DNA of 35,372 nucleotides, taken from positions 1-35,372 of the forward strand of contig JAUXSD010000181.1 of the NCBI GenBank assembly GCA_030681525.1, read 5' to 3'. The notes under the pieces are model-generated. The model ran no database searches, had not been told where the DNA came from, and saw only the letters and a list, made by a program, of their open reading frames with translations. This document shows positions 4,602 through 8,744 of this stretch, in pieces. Each line of letters starts with the position of its first letter. Within the stretch, counting starts at the first letter, position 1. Origin of the DNA: Solirubrobacteraceae bacterium (GTDB taxonomy: Bacteria; Actinomycetota; Thermoleophilia; Solirubrobacterales; Solirubrobacteraceae). The position numbers were made by a program, and so were the translations under genes.

Positions 4602-5768
4602 TCAGCCCGCCAGCCGGCCGAGCCGCTCGACGGCCTCGAGCAGCCGGTCGTCGGGCGTCGTGAGCGAGATCCGGAAGAAGCCCTCCCCGTTCGGGCCGTA
4701 GGCGCCGCCCGGCGAGACGACGACCGCCGCTTCCTCGAGCACGTGCTCGCAGTAGGCGGCGGCGCTGTCGAAGCCGGCCGGCACCGGCGCCCAGACGTAG
4801 ATCGTCCCCTTGGGCGGCGTGACGTCGACGCCGATCTTCCTCAGCGCATCGACGACGAGGTCGCGGCGGCGCGTGTAGAGCGCGTTCATCTCCTTGACGT
4901 CGCCGTCGGCGTCGGGGCTCAGCGCGGCGATACCGGCAAGCTGGACAGCCTCGAAGAGCCCGGAGTCGATGTTCGTCTTCAGCTTCCAGTAGGCCGCGAT
5001 CGCGTCGGCGTTGCCGACGATCGCCGCGCAGCGCCAGCCGGTCATGTTGTAGCCCTTCGACCACGAGAAGACCTCGACGCCGACCTCCTTGGCGCCCGGC
5101 GTCGCGAGGAACGACGGTGCGCGGTAGCCGTCGTAGGTCGTCTCGGAGTAGGCGTTGTCGTGCACGGCGAGGATCTCGTGGGTCCGCGCGAAGTCGACGG
5201 CCTCCGCGAAGAAGCCGGGCCGCACGACCGCGCCGGTCGGGTTGTTGGGGTAGTTGAAGAACATGAGCTTGGCCCGGGCCCGATCGGCCTCGGAGATCGC
5301 TGACAGGTCCGGCGTGAAGCCGTGCTCGGGCAGCAGCGGCATGAGCACCGGATCGCCGCCGGCGATCAGCGGGCCACCCGTGTAGACGGGGTACCCCGGA
5401 TCGGCGCTCAGCGCCGCGTCCCCGGGGTCGAGGAACGCGAGGTTGAGGTTGAAGATGCACTCCTTGGCGCCGATCGCCGGCATGACCTCCGTGTCGGGAT
5501 CGAGCTCCACGTCGAAGCGGCGCATGTAGAAGTCCGACACGGCCTGGCGGAAGTCCGGGCGGCCCCGGTTGGAGGGGTAGCGATGCGTCTCGGGCTCGGT
5601 GACCGCCTCCTGCATCGCGTCGACGATGAGCGCGGGCGTCGGGCGGTCCGGGTCGCCGATCCCCAGCGAGATGACGTCGATGCCCGCGGCGCGCTTCGCG
5701 GCGGTCTTGCGCGCGAGCTCGGCGAACAGGTAGGGCGGGATGAGGTCGAGGCGCTGGCTGGGCTTCAC
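4602..5768 (-). CDS. dapL: LL-diaminopimelate aminotransferase-like PLP enzyme
   Basis: 388-residue fold-type I aminotransferase. Seen: NYPNNPTG (172-179), HDNAY (203-207) with the Asp that contacts the pyridine nitrogen, the PLP lysine K238 in SWSKGYNMTGW, and R366 in FRISLT for the substrate carboxylate. The IGDPD start and overall length match the DapL group, which converts tetrahydrodipicolinate to LL-diaminopimelate in one step. The adjacent DapF-like gene supports this role. The GTG at 5768 shares GTGA with the dapF stop, giving a 4-base overlap and translational coupling. Alternative: another class I aminotransferase (aspartate/alanine type) acting on a different amino acid. The class is certain; the substrate is inferred from context and resemblance. 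Confidence 0.8.
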   Translation of the reverse strand: MKPSQRLDLIPPYLFAELARKTAAKRAAGIDVISLGIGDPDRPTPALIVDAMQEAVTEPETHRYPSNRGRPDFRQAVSDFYMRRFDVELDPDTEVMPAIGAKECIFNLNLAFLDPGDAALSADPGYPVYTGGPLIAGGDPVLMPLLPEHGFTPDLSAISEADRARAKLMFFNYPNNPTGAVVRPGFFAEAVDFARTHEILAVHDNAYSETTYDGYRAPSFLATPGAKEVGVEVFSWSKGYNMTGWRCAAIVGNADAIAAYWKLKTNIDSGLFEAVQLAGIAALSPDADGDVKEMNALYTRRRDLVVDALRKIGVDVTPPKGTIYVWAPVPAGFDSAAAYCEHVLEEAAVVVSPGGAYGPNGEGFFRISLTTPDDRLLEAVERLGRLAG

Positions 5769-6622
5769 AGGTTCTCCAGTTCGGTGCAGAAGTCGTCGGC
5801 GAGCTCGCCGCGGTACACGGGCCGCGCCCAGCCGGTCAGGTCGTAGTGCAGGTCCTCCGCCACGTCGACGGTCAGCTCGCCGCCGTCGAGGCGCACGGTC
5901 ACCGGCGAATCGCCGCCGCGCAGGACGTAGGCGATCGCGGCACCGCTGGCGCCGGTGCCCGAGGACATCGTCTCCCCGACGCCGCGCTCGTAGATCCGAG
6001 CGCGGATGACGCCCGGCGCGAGCTCGGCGAACCAGGAGACGTTCGTGCGGTTGGGAAAGAGCTCGTGCTCCATGATCGGCGCGCCGATGGCGGGGAGATC
6101 GAGCGTCTCGAGCTCCCCGGCGTCCGCCACGTGGATCGCGCACTGCGGGTTGCCCACGGCGACGTGCTGAAAGCGCCAGGTGCGGCCGCCGGCCTCGAGC
6201 TGCGCGGCGCCGTCGGCGCCGCCGGACGGGAAGTCCTCCGACGCGGTGCGCGCGCGCCCCATGTCCAGCGTGCACGTGTCGGCGCCGGTGATGTGCGGGC
6301 GGATCTCGCCGGCGCCCGTCTGGATCGAGAAGCGGTCGGAGTCCGTCCAGCCGCTGCGTCTCAAGAACAGCGCGGCTTCACGGGCGCCGTTGCCCGACAG
6401 CCCGGACTCCGAGCCGTCGGGGTTGAAGATGCGCAGGCGCGCGACGAAGCCCGGCTGGTCGGGCTCGGAGAGCAGCAGGATCCCGTCCGAGCCGACGCCG
6501 GTGTGGACATCGCAGATGCGCCGGATGCGGGCGGCGCTGAGCGCGAACGGCAGCGCCCGCTCCTCGAAGATGAGGTAGTCGTTGCCGAGCGCCTGCCACT
6601 TCTCGAAACCGGTCGGGCTCAT
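5765..6622 (-). CDS. dapF: Diaminopimelate epimerase-like protein, both catalytic Cys replaced by Ser
   Basis: 285-residue DapF-family protein; family members interconvert LL- and meso-diaminopimelate for lysine and cell-wall synthesis. Seen: GNDY (13-16), NPDGSESGLSGNGAR (67-81), AVGNPQC (155-161), FPNRTNV (189-195) and YERGVGETMSSGTGAS (211-226), so the substrate-binding Asn, Arg and Glu residues are kept. The two residues that should be the acid/base cysteines are Ser76 (codon at 6395-6397) and Ser221 (5960-5962), both TCG. Each differs from a Cys codon at two positions, so a single sequencing error cannot explain either. The ATG shares ATGA with the miaA stop. Known DapF chemistry needs two thiols, so the enzyme either works differently or has another substrate (inference). 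Confidence 0.85.
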   Translation of the reverse strand: MSPTGFEKWQALGNDYLIFEERALPFALSAARIRRICDVHTGVGSDGILLLSEPDQPGFVARLRIFNPDGSESGLSGNGAREAALFLRRSGWTDSDRFSIQTGAGEIRPHITGADTCTLDMGRARTASEDFPSGGADGAAQLEAGGRTWRFQHVAVGNPQCAIHVADAGELETLDLPAIGAPIMEHELFPNRTNVSWFAELAPGVIRARIYERGVGETMSSGTGASGAAIAYVLRGGDSPVTVRLDGGELTVDVAEDLHYDLTGWARPVYRGELADDFCTELENL

Positions 6623-7524
6623 TCGGGCGCTGAGTCTATGAGGGCCGCGACGGCCTCCGGGTCGCGGCCGGTCATGTCGACGAGCTCGACATCGGGCAGC
6701 TTGCGCATCCAGGTGAGCTGGCGGCGCGCGTAGCGCCGCGTGCGCAGCTTCATCGCGTCGATGTCGCCGCTGCGCAGCTCCGCGAAGCCGAGCGCCACGC
6801 GGGCCGTCGGGGAGGCGCCGGCGGCCTCGGCGCGGCGGACCTCCTCGATCGCGCCGGCCGCGACCATCGCGTCGACGCGGCGCTCGATGCGGGCGTACAG
6901 CTCGTCGCGATCGCGCACGAGGCCGACGAGGCGGGTCGGATGGCGCGTGTCGGATGTCCACAGGCGGTTCGGCGCGGCGGGGTCGGCGTCGAGCGCGCCC
7001 TGCTCGTGCAGCTCGAGTGCGCGGATGACGCGGTGGCGATCGCGCGGGTCGATCCGCGCGGCGCTCGCCGGCGCCGCCAGCGCGAGCTCGGCGTGCAGCG
7101 CCTCGGGGCCGCGCGCGTCCATCGCGGCCTGCCAGCGCTCACGCGCCCCGGGCGTGGGCGGCGGGCGCAGCTGCAGGTCGGCGAGCGCGGCGCGCAGGTA
7201 CAGGCCGGTGCCGCCGACGACGATCGGCGTCGCGCCCTGCGCGAGCAGCGCGTCGATCTCGGCGTGCGCGAGGGCGGCGTACTCGGCGACCGAGAAGCGC
7301 TCGCGCACCGGCACGAACGAGACGAGCCGGTGGTCGAGGCGGGCGAGCTGGTCGCGGTCCGGCACGCCGGTCAGCGTCTCCAGCCCGGCGTAGACCTGCA
7401 GCGCGTCGGCCGCGACCGCGACCGGGCGCCCGCCGCGCGCGCGGACGCGCTCGGCGAGCGCGATCGCCACGTCGGTCTTGCCGACCCCGGTGGGGCCGAA
7501 GAGCGCGAGCACGGATGGGCTCAT
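6619..7524 (-). CDS. miaA: tRNA dimethylallyltransferase MiaA
   Basis: 301 residues. Transfers a dimethylallyl group to N6 of A37 in tRNAs reading U-starting codons; its product is the substrate of MiaB, encoded at 19371-20699. Seen: P-loop GPTGVGKT (10-17), ADALQVYAGL (39-48, where DSxQVY is usual; here Ala replaces Ser), GGTGLYLRA and RRYARRQLTWMRK near the C-terminus. The ATG at 7524 has the minus-strand hexamer CATACT (7532-7537) seven bases upstream and no Shine-Dalgarno, so it probably starts the operon as a leaderless gene. The stop overlaps the dapF start by four bases. Confidence 0.95.
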   Translation of the reverse strand: MSPSVLALFGPTGVGKTDVAIALAERVRARGGRPVAVAADALQVYAGLETLTGVPDRDQLARLDHRLVSFVPVRERFSVAEYAALAHAEIDALLAQGATPIVVGGTGLYLRAALADLQLRPPPTPGARERWQAAMDARGPEALHAELALAAPASAARIDPRDRHRVIRALELHEQGALDADPAAPNRLWTSDTRHPTRLVGLVRDRDELYARIERRVDAMVAAGAIEEVRRAEAAGASPTARVALGFAELRSGDIDAMKLRTRRYARRQLTWMRKLPDVELVDMTGRDPEAVAALIDSAPE

Positions 7525-7571
7525 GGCGGCCAGTATGGGCTGCTTCGGGTGCGGAGTATCGTGCCGAGACG
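7525..7571. promoter_or_regulatory. Divergent promoter region miaA / FIST gene
   Basis: A 47-bp gap between divergent starts. CATACT (minus, 7532-7537) precedes miaA by seven bases; TATCGT (plus, 7557-7562) precedes the FIST gene by nine. No other element is visible. Confidence 0.3.
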
Positions 7572-8744
7572 ATGAGCGTGCGCATCGCGTGCGGGCTGTC
7601 CACCGCAGCGGACCCACGGGCCGGCGCGGTCGAGGCCGCTGCCAGGGTCGCCGCCGGGCTGGGCACCGTCGCCATCGACCTCGCCGTCGTGTTCGCCTCC
7701 GGCGCGCATCTCGCCGACCCCGAGGCGACGCTCGCCGGCGTCCACGAGGCGCTCGCGCCCGACGTGCTGATCGGTTGCGGGGCGGGCGGCGTCGTCGGCG
7801 ACGGCCGCGAGATCGAGGACGGCACCGCGGTCACCGTCTGGGCCGCGGCGTTCGAGAACGGCATCGTCTCGACCTTCCACGCCGAGGTGACCGAGGTCGA
7901 GGACGGCGTTGCGATCACCGGCGTGCCCGACCTGCAGGGCGCCGGCGGGGCGATCCTGCTGCCGGACCCGTACTCGTTTCCGACGGACGCCGTGCTGGCG
8001 GAGATGGTCGCGCGCGCGCCGGGCGTGCCGATCCTCGGCGGGCTGTCGAGCGCGCGCACGATGCGCGGCCAGGCGGCGCTCTTCCTCGGCGAGCAGGTCG
8101 TGCCCGGCGGCGCGATCGGGGTGCGCTTCGACGGCGTCGAGCTGCTGCCGTGCGTCTCGCAGGGCGCGACCCCGGTCGGCCCCGAGCTCGAGATCACGTC
8201 GGGCGAGGGCCGGTTGATCAAGGAGCTCGGCGGCCGCCCGGCGCTCGGCGCGCTGCGCGCCGTGCTGGAGCGCCTCGACGAGCCCGAGCGCGAGATGCTC
8301 TCCCAGGGCATGCTGCTGGGGATCGTCGTCGAGCCCGGCGCCGGCGACCGCGGCGATCACGCGCACGGCGACTTCCTCGTGCGCAGCGTGCTCGGCGGCG
8401 ATCCCGACACCGGCGCGATCGCGATCGGCGCGTCGATCGAGGAGGGCCAGGTCGTCCGGATGCACGCGCGTGACGCGGCGTCGGCGGACCGTGACCTCAC
8501 CGAGGCGCTCGAGCTGCGCCGCCGGGCGCTCGGCGACGACGTCCCCGCCGGCGCGCTGATGTTCACCTGCAACGGCCGGGGCCGCGGGATGTTCGGCCTG
8601 CCCGACCACGACGCTTCAGCGGTCGCCGGCACGCTGGGCGACATCCCGACCGCCGGCTTCTTCGCGGCGGGCGAGATCGGGCCGGTCGGCGGGGAGAACT
8701 TCCTGCACGGCTTCACCGCGACGGTCGCGGTCTTCGCCTCCTGA
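7572..8744 (+). CDS. FIST N/C domain signal-sensing protein
   Basis: 390-residue protein with the two-part FIST architecture (F-box and intracellular signal transduction proteins), thought to sense small ligands such as amino acids. Seen: FIST_N region with DVLIGCGAGGVVGDGREIEDG (about 65-85), VPILGGLSSA, the GGAIGVRFDG strand near the domain junction, and the FIST_C part with ALMFTCNGRGRGMFG and PTAGFFAAGEIGPVGG, the most diagnostic stretch. No transmembrane segment or output domain is fused to it, so it is a stand-alone cytoplasmic form. ATG at 7572 after a TATCGT -10-like box. Ligand and partner unknown. Confidence 0.85.
   Translation: MSVRIACGLSTAADPRAGAVEAAARVAAGLGTVAIDLAVVFASGAHLADPEATLAGVHEALAPDVLIGCGAGGVVGDGREIEDGTAVTVWAAAFENGIVSTFHAEVTEVEDGVAITGVPDLQGAGGAILLPDPYSFPTDAVLAEMVARAPGVPILGGLSSARTMRGQAALFLGEQVVPGGAIGVRFDGVELLPCVSQGATPVGPELEITSGEGRLIKELGGRPALGALRAVLERLDEPEREMLSQGMLLGIVVEPGAGDRGDHAHGDFLVRSVLGGDPDTGAIAIGASIEEGQVVRMHARDAASADRDLTEALELRRRALGDDVPAGALMFTCNGRGRGMFGLPDHDASAVAGTLGDIPTAGFFAAGEIGPVGGENFLHGFTATVAVFAS

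Follow-up and report, generated by a model that had tools for sequence, protein, structure and literature searches.

A DapF homolog with serine at both catalytic-cysteine positions, conserved across the Solirubrobacterales and putatively the sole diaminopimelate epimerase of the lineage

The window considered here, the whole 35,372-nucleotide stretch of DNA analyzed from a Solirubrobacteraceae bacterium (order Solirubrobacterales, class Thermoleophilia, phylum Actinomycetota; assembly GCA_030681525.1, contig JAUXSD010000181.1), carries a homolog of dapF, the gene for diaminopimelate (DAP) epimerase, in which both catalytic-cysteine positions encode serine (Table 1). DapF is the textbook example of an epimerase that works with two thiols, and it is also a target for antibacterials. 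As a preliminary description of the sequence had proposed, and as profile matches on both sides now confirm, the gene lies between miaA and a gene for a DapL-like aminotransferase, whose product falls under the stricter TIGR03540 cut-off (513.8 versus 593.25 bits). The GTG start of the dapL-like gene overlaps the dapF stop by 4 nucleotides (GTGA), and, with an overlap of the same length between miaA and dapF, the three genes appear to form an overlapping operon and look translationally coupled.

Table 1. Features of the miaA-dapF-dapL region of the window (positions are those of the whole stretch)
Feature	Position	Strand	Remarks
dapL-like LL-diaminopimelate aminotransferase gene	4602..5768	minus	NF006756, 533.6 bits (cut-off 507); downstream of dapF
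dapF-like gene, Ser/Ser at catalytic-cysteine positions	5765..6622	minus	Open frame, 285 aa + stop; TIGR00652, PF01678
Ser221 codon (TCG), second catalytic-cysteine position	5960..5962	minus	Ser in 67/67 order loci
Gln160 codon (CAG), in place of GNPH His	6143..6145	minus	Gln in 67/67 order loci
Ser76 codon (TCG), first catalytic-cysteine position	6395..6397	minus	Ser in 67/67 order loci
miaA, upstream gene	6619..7617	minus	TIGR00174, 161.9 bits (cut-off 148.65); 4-nucleotide overlap with dapF (ATGA)

By family score, fold, substrate pocket, and neighborhood, the window gene is a dapF, while the two-cysteine feature that defines DapF chemistry is absent from its product. The protein scores 184.2 bits against the DapF equivalog model TIGR00652 (cut-off 114.65), matches DAP_epimerase (PF01678) as its sole Pfam family, and fails the model for bifunctional DapF/glutamate racemases (NF038284; 44.4 bits, cut-off 350). 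An AlphaFold2 model, built from a 52-row alignment that included Cys/Cys relatives, had a mean pLDDT of 97.4, and Foldseek comparison with the PDB gave Anabaena DapF as the top match (9mro_A; TM-score 0.87, E-value 2.0e-32), which places the protein in the DapF fold. The 26 best-ranked matches were all DapF or O-ureidoserine racemase, with hydroxyproline enzymes appearing from rank 32 at 12-18% identity; a closer relation to the proline racemase superfamily than to DapF was rejected on this ranking and on the Pfam result. The ten positions that contact DAP, defined from the C. glutamicum (PMC5296763) and Anabaena (PMC12039745) enzymes, are all present in the window protein (N14, N67, G77, N78, N158, N194, E212, R213, G222, and T223), in agreement with the earlier claim that the substrate-binding Asn, Arg, and Glu motifs are kept. 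In C. glutamicum DapF, mutation of most contact residues to alanine almost abolished activity (PMC5296763).

The preliminary description had placed serine at both catalytic positions, each encoded by TCG, and both statements stand: the three PDB DapFs aligned to the window protein have cysteine where it has Ser76 (in DGSESGL-S-GNGAR) and Ser221 (in ERGVGETMS-S-GTGA), and the PROSITE DapF signature, as quoted in PMC8225329, fits everywhere but at its cysteine. A third change, absent from that description, puts Gln160 in place of the histidine of the GNPH motif, which is kept in all 117 aligned rows from outside the order. Modeling of the H. influenzae enzyme reportedly paired this histidine with the first cysteine. 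The thiols of the Anabaena enzyme have no basic residue within 4 Å (PMC12039745). The order also carries near-fixed changes at three other positions (Glu/Gln82, Ser196, and Gly227). Helices span residues 77-89 and 222-234 in the AlphaFold2 model, directly preceded by Ser76 and Ser221, so that each serine is placed by the model at a helix N-terminus, as are the catalytic cysteines of Anabaena DapF (PMC12039745).

Conservation was assessed in a set of 61 genomes of the order (the genome of the window and 60 relatives, from 42 genera and 4 family codes), which, together with genomes G090 and G143 and four further named records, gave 67 loci encoding 66 distinct protein sequences. Ser76, Ser221, and Gln160 are identical in all 67, among 51 invariant columns, and the ten DAP-contact positions are likewise invariant, in proteins whose pairwise identity averages 63% and falls to 51%. 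Drift would give other residues at two such sites; that neither shows Ala, Gly, Thr, or Cys in any locus therefore counts for functional serines. The same agreement at all three sites excludes assembly error or chance. A sequencing error, contamination, or decaying gene might be suspected in a 352-contig assembly with 5.35% contamination, but as the origin of the serine pair this is scarcely credible, being already refuted by the comparison and at odds with the open frame, the high-confidence model, and the invariant columns. Serine was also kept through at least seven TCN/AGY codon switches at site 221 and at least two at site 76 and, since each switch takes two base substitutions, its retention suggests selection for serine; codon switching as a special mark of catalytic sites was rejected, as Ser71 and Ser196 switch likewise. 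In the alignment of Thermoleophilia DapF sequences that the preliminary description had recommended, Ser/Ser is standard in the order, a group of soil bacteria, and Cys/Cys orthologs also occur in the class. Its reservation that the pair might be both standard and already characterized in the clade thus applies in its first half only, no characterization having been found in the openly licensed PMC literature.

TIGR00652 has one match per genome in all 61 order genomes, including that of the window, where a second, canonical dapF had been envisaged as a reason to regard this copy as a minor paralog. The two PF01678 stretches found in each of the 61 were rejected as evidence of a second, divergent DapF, as they are halves of one gene. 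LysA and MurE both use meso-DAP. LysA was matched in 61/61 order genomes (59 over cut-off) and MurE in 60/61 (57 over cut-off), and the 30 order MurE loci read all have the DNPR motif, which we take to mark DAP-adding MurE. Loss of the lysine pathway was rejected on the LysA matches in the order and in most genomes with other Ser variants (described below). A DAP dehydrogenase bypass was also rejected: this enzyme passed its cut-off in none of the 61 genomes (five weak, short matches fell below), in a search in which 2 of 14 control genomes passed. Likewise, PF01168 and PF01177 counts were not consistently raised in Ser/Ser groups (38 genomes), giving no sign of an extra pyridoxal phosphate-dependent or Asp/Glu racemase; PF01168 matches number 1-4 in order genomes and 1-7 in Cys/Cys class genomes, and the single-contig genome G024 has one PF01168 match and no PF01177 match. 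A side observation concerns D-glutamate: three single-contig genomes (G024, G037, and G066) show no PF01177 Asp/Glu racemase at E 0.001 that would supply it, possibly a limit of sensitivity.

Because there is no second DapF and no DAP dehydrogenase over cut-off, yet LysA and a DNPR-bearing MurE are kept, the Ser/Ser DapF would be the only meso-DAP source visible in these genomes, although an unrelated, unsearched enzyme family could hold another. meso-DAP has been reported as the wall diamino acid in Solirubrobacterales (PMC3035278) and also in Solirubrobacter (PMC10722151). Of the two explanations offered earlier, the genome evidence favors a change of mechanism over a repurposing of the protein, no other meso-DAP source being visible.

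Gene neighborhoods were compared at loci with at least 900 nucleotides of flanking sequence (a requirement that no locus of family f7, described below, satisfied). On the dapF strand, miaA was matched upstream at 36/36 order loci, 28/28 loci from other families of the class, and 30/30 loci elsewhere in the phylum. The window aminotransferase has a match downstream on the same strand at 26 of 35 order loci (opposite strand at four, none at five), compared with 30/30 other-family class loci and 26/29 other phylum loci. This sharing of the miaA-dapF-aminotransferase neighborhood with Cys/Cys dapF genes speaks for orthology.

Serine variants were also found elsewhere in the Actinomycetota, in a class sample (99 genomes searched, 91 with a match, 80 read) and a phylum sample (149 searched, 138 with a match, 69 read). 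Over 184 rows, the first, second, and GNPH sites read Cys/Cys/His in 82, Ser/Ser/Gln in 67, Ser/Ser/His in 17, Ser/Cys/His in 13, and Cys/Ser/His in 5, counts that carry no meaning as frequencies since the phylum picks mixed top-scoring with lower-scoring matches and one copy was read where a genome had two. The Ser/Ser/His rows comprise 15 genomes of family f7 of the class (all 15 read; 16 have a match, G124 being left out) and one each of families f44 and f47. DAP contacts are retained in all Ser-bearing rows from outside the order, save for a Thr/Ser exchange at position 223. The order shares Ala11, Leu75, and Ala83 with f7 but not with f44/f47, making these residues candidate convergent second-shell changes. 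On a tree built with the three sites removed, 10 state changes are needed, and starred branches (quick method) force at least two origins of Ser/Ser/His (f7; f44/f47), at least three of Ser/Cys, and at least two of Cys/Ser. The tree places f7 beside the Cys/Cys family f5; separate Ser/Ser origins in the order and f7 are not claimed, as an approximately unbiased test does not reject a single clade (p 0.204). In the 35 genomes with other Ser forms, DAP dehydrogenase passed its cut-off in none (seven weak matches fell below), and LysA was matched in 32 (31 over cut-off), with none in G109, G175, and G198.

Several of these variants are of separate interest. G175 and G198 (loci L110 and L103; family f32; 1.4 and 1.2 Mb) combine a Ser/Cys DapF with the absence of a LysA match, as if DAP were made for the wall only. 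Five phylum genomes (L177, L180, L181, L182, and L186) have cysteine at the first site and serine at the second, on at least two separate starred branches. Five loci of family f9, genus code g52 (L082, L085, L086, L088, and L091), represent a recent Ser/Cys change nested in Cys/Cys f9 (branch 98 starred), so that Ser/Cys and Cys/Cys members of this family are a natural close pair differing at one site. The dapF match of G124 (f7) contains one in-frame TAG, and that of G120 (family f8) is split into two stretches.

The interpretation preferred here, with a probability of roughly 0.6, is that the window gene is the orthologous and sole dapF of its lineage, encoding a working epimerase that converts LL-DAP to meso-DAP via two serines as the acid/base pair; both activity on DAP and serine as the actual base are inferred. 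As in DapF, the substrate carboxylate would be held at the two helix N-termini in a closed, dry active site, where one serine, as an oxyanion, would abstract the alpha-proton on one side and the hydroxyl of the other would return a proton on the opposite side, the second-shell changes (Gln160, Glu/Gln82, Ser196, and Gly227) perhaps retuning the site. In the proline racemase superfamily, whose fold is related, two Ser-bearing enzymes are active, the Ser-Cys 4-hydroxyproline epimerase and the Ser-Thr dehydratase (PMC4113996), which suggests that a catalytic site of this kind can work with serine. The activity of C. glutamicum DapF is lost on exposure to H2O2, with a disulfide forming between its catalytic cysteines (PMC5296763), and escape from this oxidation, to which a Ser/Ser pair is not open, is one guess at a reason for the swap. 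Even odds are given to the broader proposal of a natural cofactor-free, thiol-free epimerase working with two serines, fixed across the order, present in at least two Actinomycetota branches, and possibly favored by immunity to disulfide formation.

Strong chemical evidence weighs against catalysis by the serine pair. Engineered Cys-to-Ser PddB keeps <0.1% activity, a loss described as comparable with that in DapF mutants of M. tuberculosis (PMC8225329), and the corresponding HisR mutants are greatly reduced (PMC11602996). A review regards serine as a poor base where the alpha-proton to be removed has a pKa of about 29, and holds cysteine to be favored over Ser/Thr for reasons of pKa and desolvation (PMC8142540), while the Ser-Thr member of the proline racemase superfamily, from which both cysteines are absent, is a dehydratase and no epimerase (PMC4113996). 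The order is also without the GNPH histidine, and a replacement base is not obvious. Moreover, the reports of meso-DAP (PMC3035278, PMC10722151) cover cultured species, to which none of the dapF loci read here is assigned by name.

With both catalytic cysteines gone, the engineered mutants nearly dead, and the gene tightly coupled to dapL, the protein might not epimerize DAP at all and instead bind it as a partner or regulator of another protein such as DapL, with meso-DAP made by an unknown enzyme. This is unlikely, although the least so of the alternatives, since that enzyme would be needed in several lineages and the searches for a DAP dehydrogenase over cut-off and for another DapF (61 genomes) and for a racemase excess (38 genomes) gave no candidate. 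Also unlikely is a DAP epimerase in which Ser76 and Ser221 only shape the site and the true base is another group, for instance Glu212, a water molecule bound in the site, or even the substrate. This would accommodate the very poor basicity of serine described in the papers cited above, and Glu212, which contacts the amine of the substrate in the C. glutamicum enzyme (PMC5296763), is invariant in the order. However, Glu212 is equally kept in Cys/Cys enzymes (81/82 rows), no additional acidic or basic side chain pointing at the substrate was recognized, as judged without atomic coordinates, and the serines are never replaced in the 67 loci. A shift to another substrate or reaction, whether racemization of another amino acid or elimination, is distinctly improbable: although O-ureidoserine racemase is among the fold matches, histidine racemase is a further DapF relative (PMC11602996), and the Ser-Thr relative is a dehydratase (PMC4113996), the distal-site DAP contacts N67, N158, N194, and R213 are all invariant, the neighborhood is that of Cys/Cys dapF, and meso-DAP would be left without a source.

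Canonical DapF, as in H. influenzae, C. glutamicum, and Anabaena, shares with the window protein a TIGR00652 score over cut-off, the fold, and the DAP contacts, and differs from it at the two catalytic cysteines and the GNPH histidine; the miaA-dapF-dapL neighborhood likewise recurs around Cys/Cys genes. Ser-type hydroxyproline enzymes have a related fold (4lb0 and 4k7g are among the Foldseek matches) and are active with serine replacing a catalytic cysteine; however, they act on other substrates, their single serine is partnered by Cys or Thr, and the Cys-free one is a dehydratase (PMC4113996). The same substitution was engineered at one site in H. influenzae DapF (C73S, 2q9h; C217S, 2q9j; according to PDB titles), PddB, and HisR, but these mutants, in contrast to the window protein, are single, artificial, and without a co-evolved second shell. 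In the Cys/Thr aspartate/glutamate racemases EcL-DER and MMP0739, a natural hydroxyl replaces one of the two catalytic thiols, although these belong to a different fold family, keep one thiol, and catalyze a reaction reported or predicted to be one-way (PMC8142540). In the openly licensed PMC literature, no description of a naturally occurring Ser/Ser or Ser/Cys DapF was found, and DapF goes unmentioned in the main text of a paper on Thermoleophilia markers (PMC6544083).

If the Ser/Ser DapF works, the rule that prefers cysteine over serine is incomplete, and the occurrence of Cys/Cys and Ser/Ser orthologs in one class would make the deprotonation of unactivated amino acids testable by swaps of the two residues together with their second shell. 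Entire lineages would escape both DapF inhibitors aimed at thiols and signatures built on cysteine. Should the enzyme prove inactive, an unknown route to meso-DAP must exist in these bacteria, which would be equally new. Finally, beyond the operon, miaA is adjoined on the opposite strand by a gene encoding FIST N and FIST C sensor domains (positions 7515-8744, plus strand).
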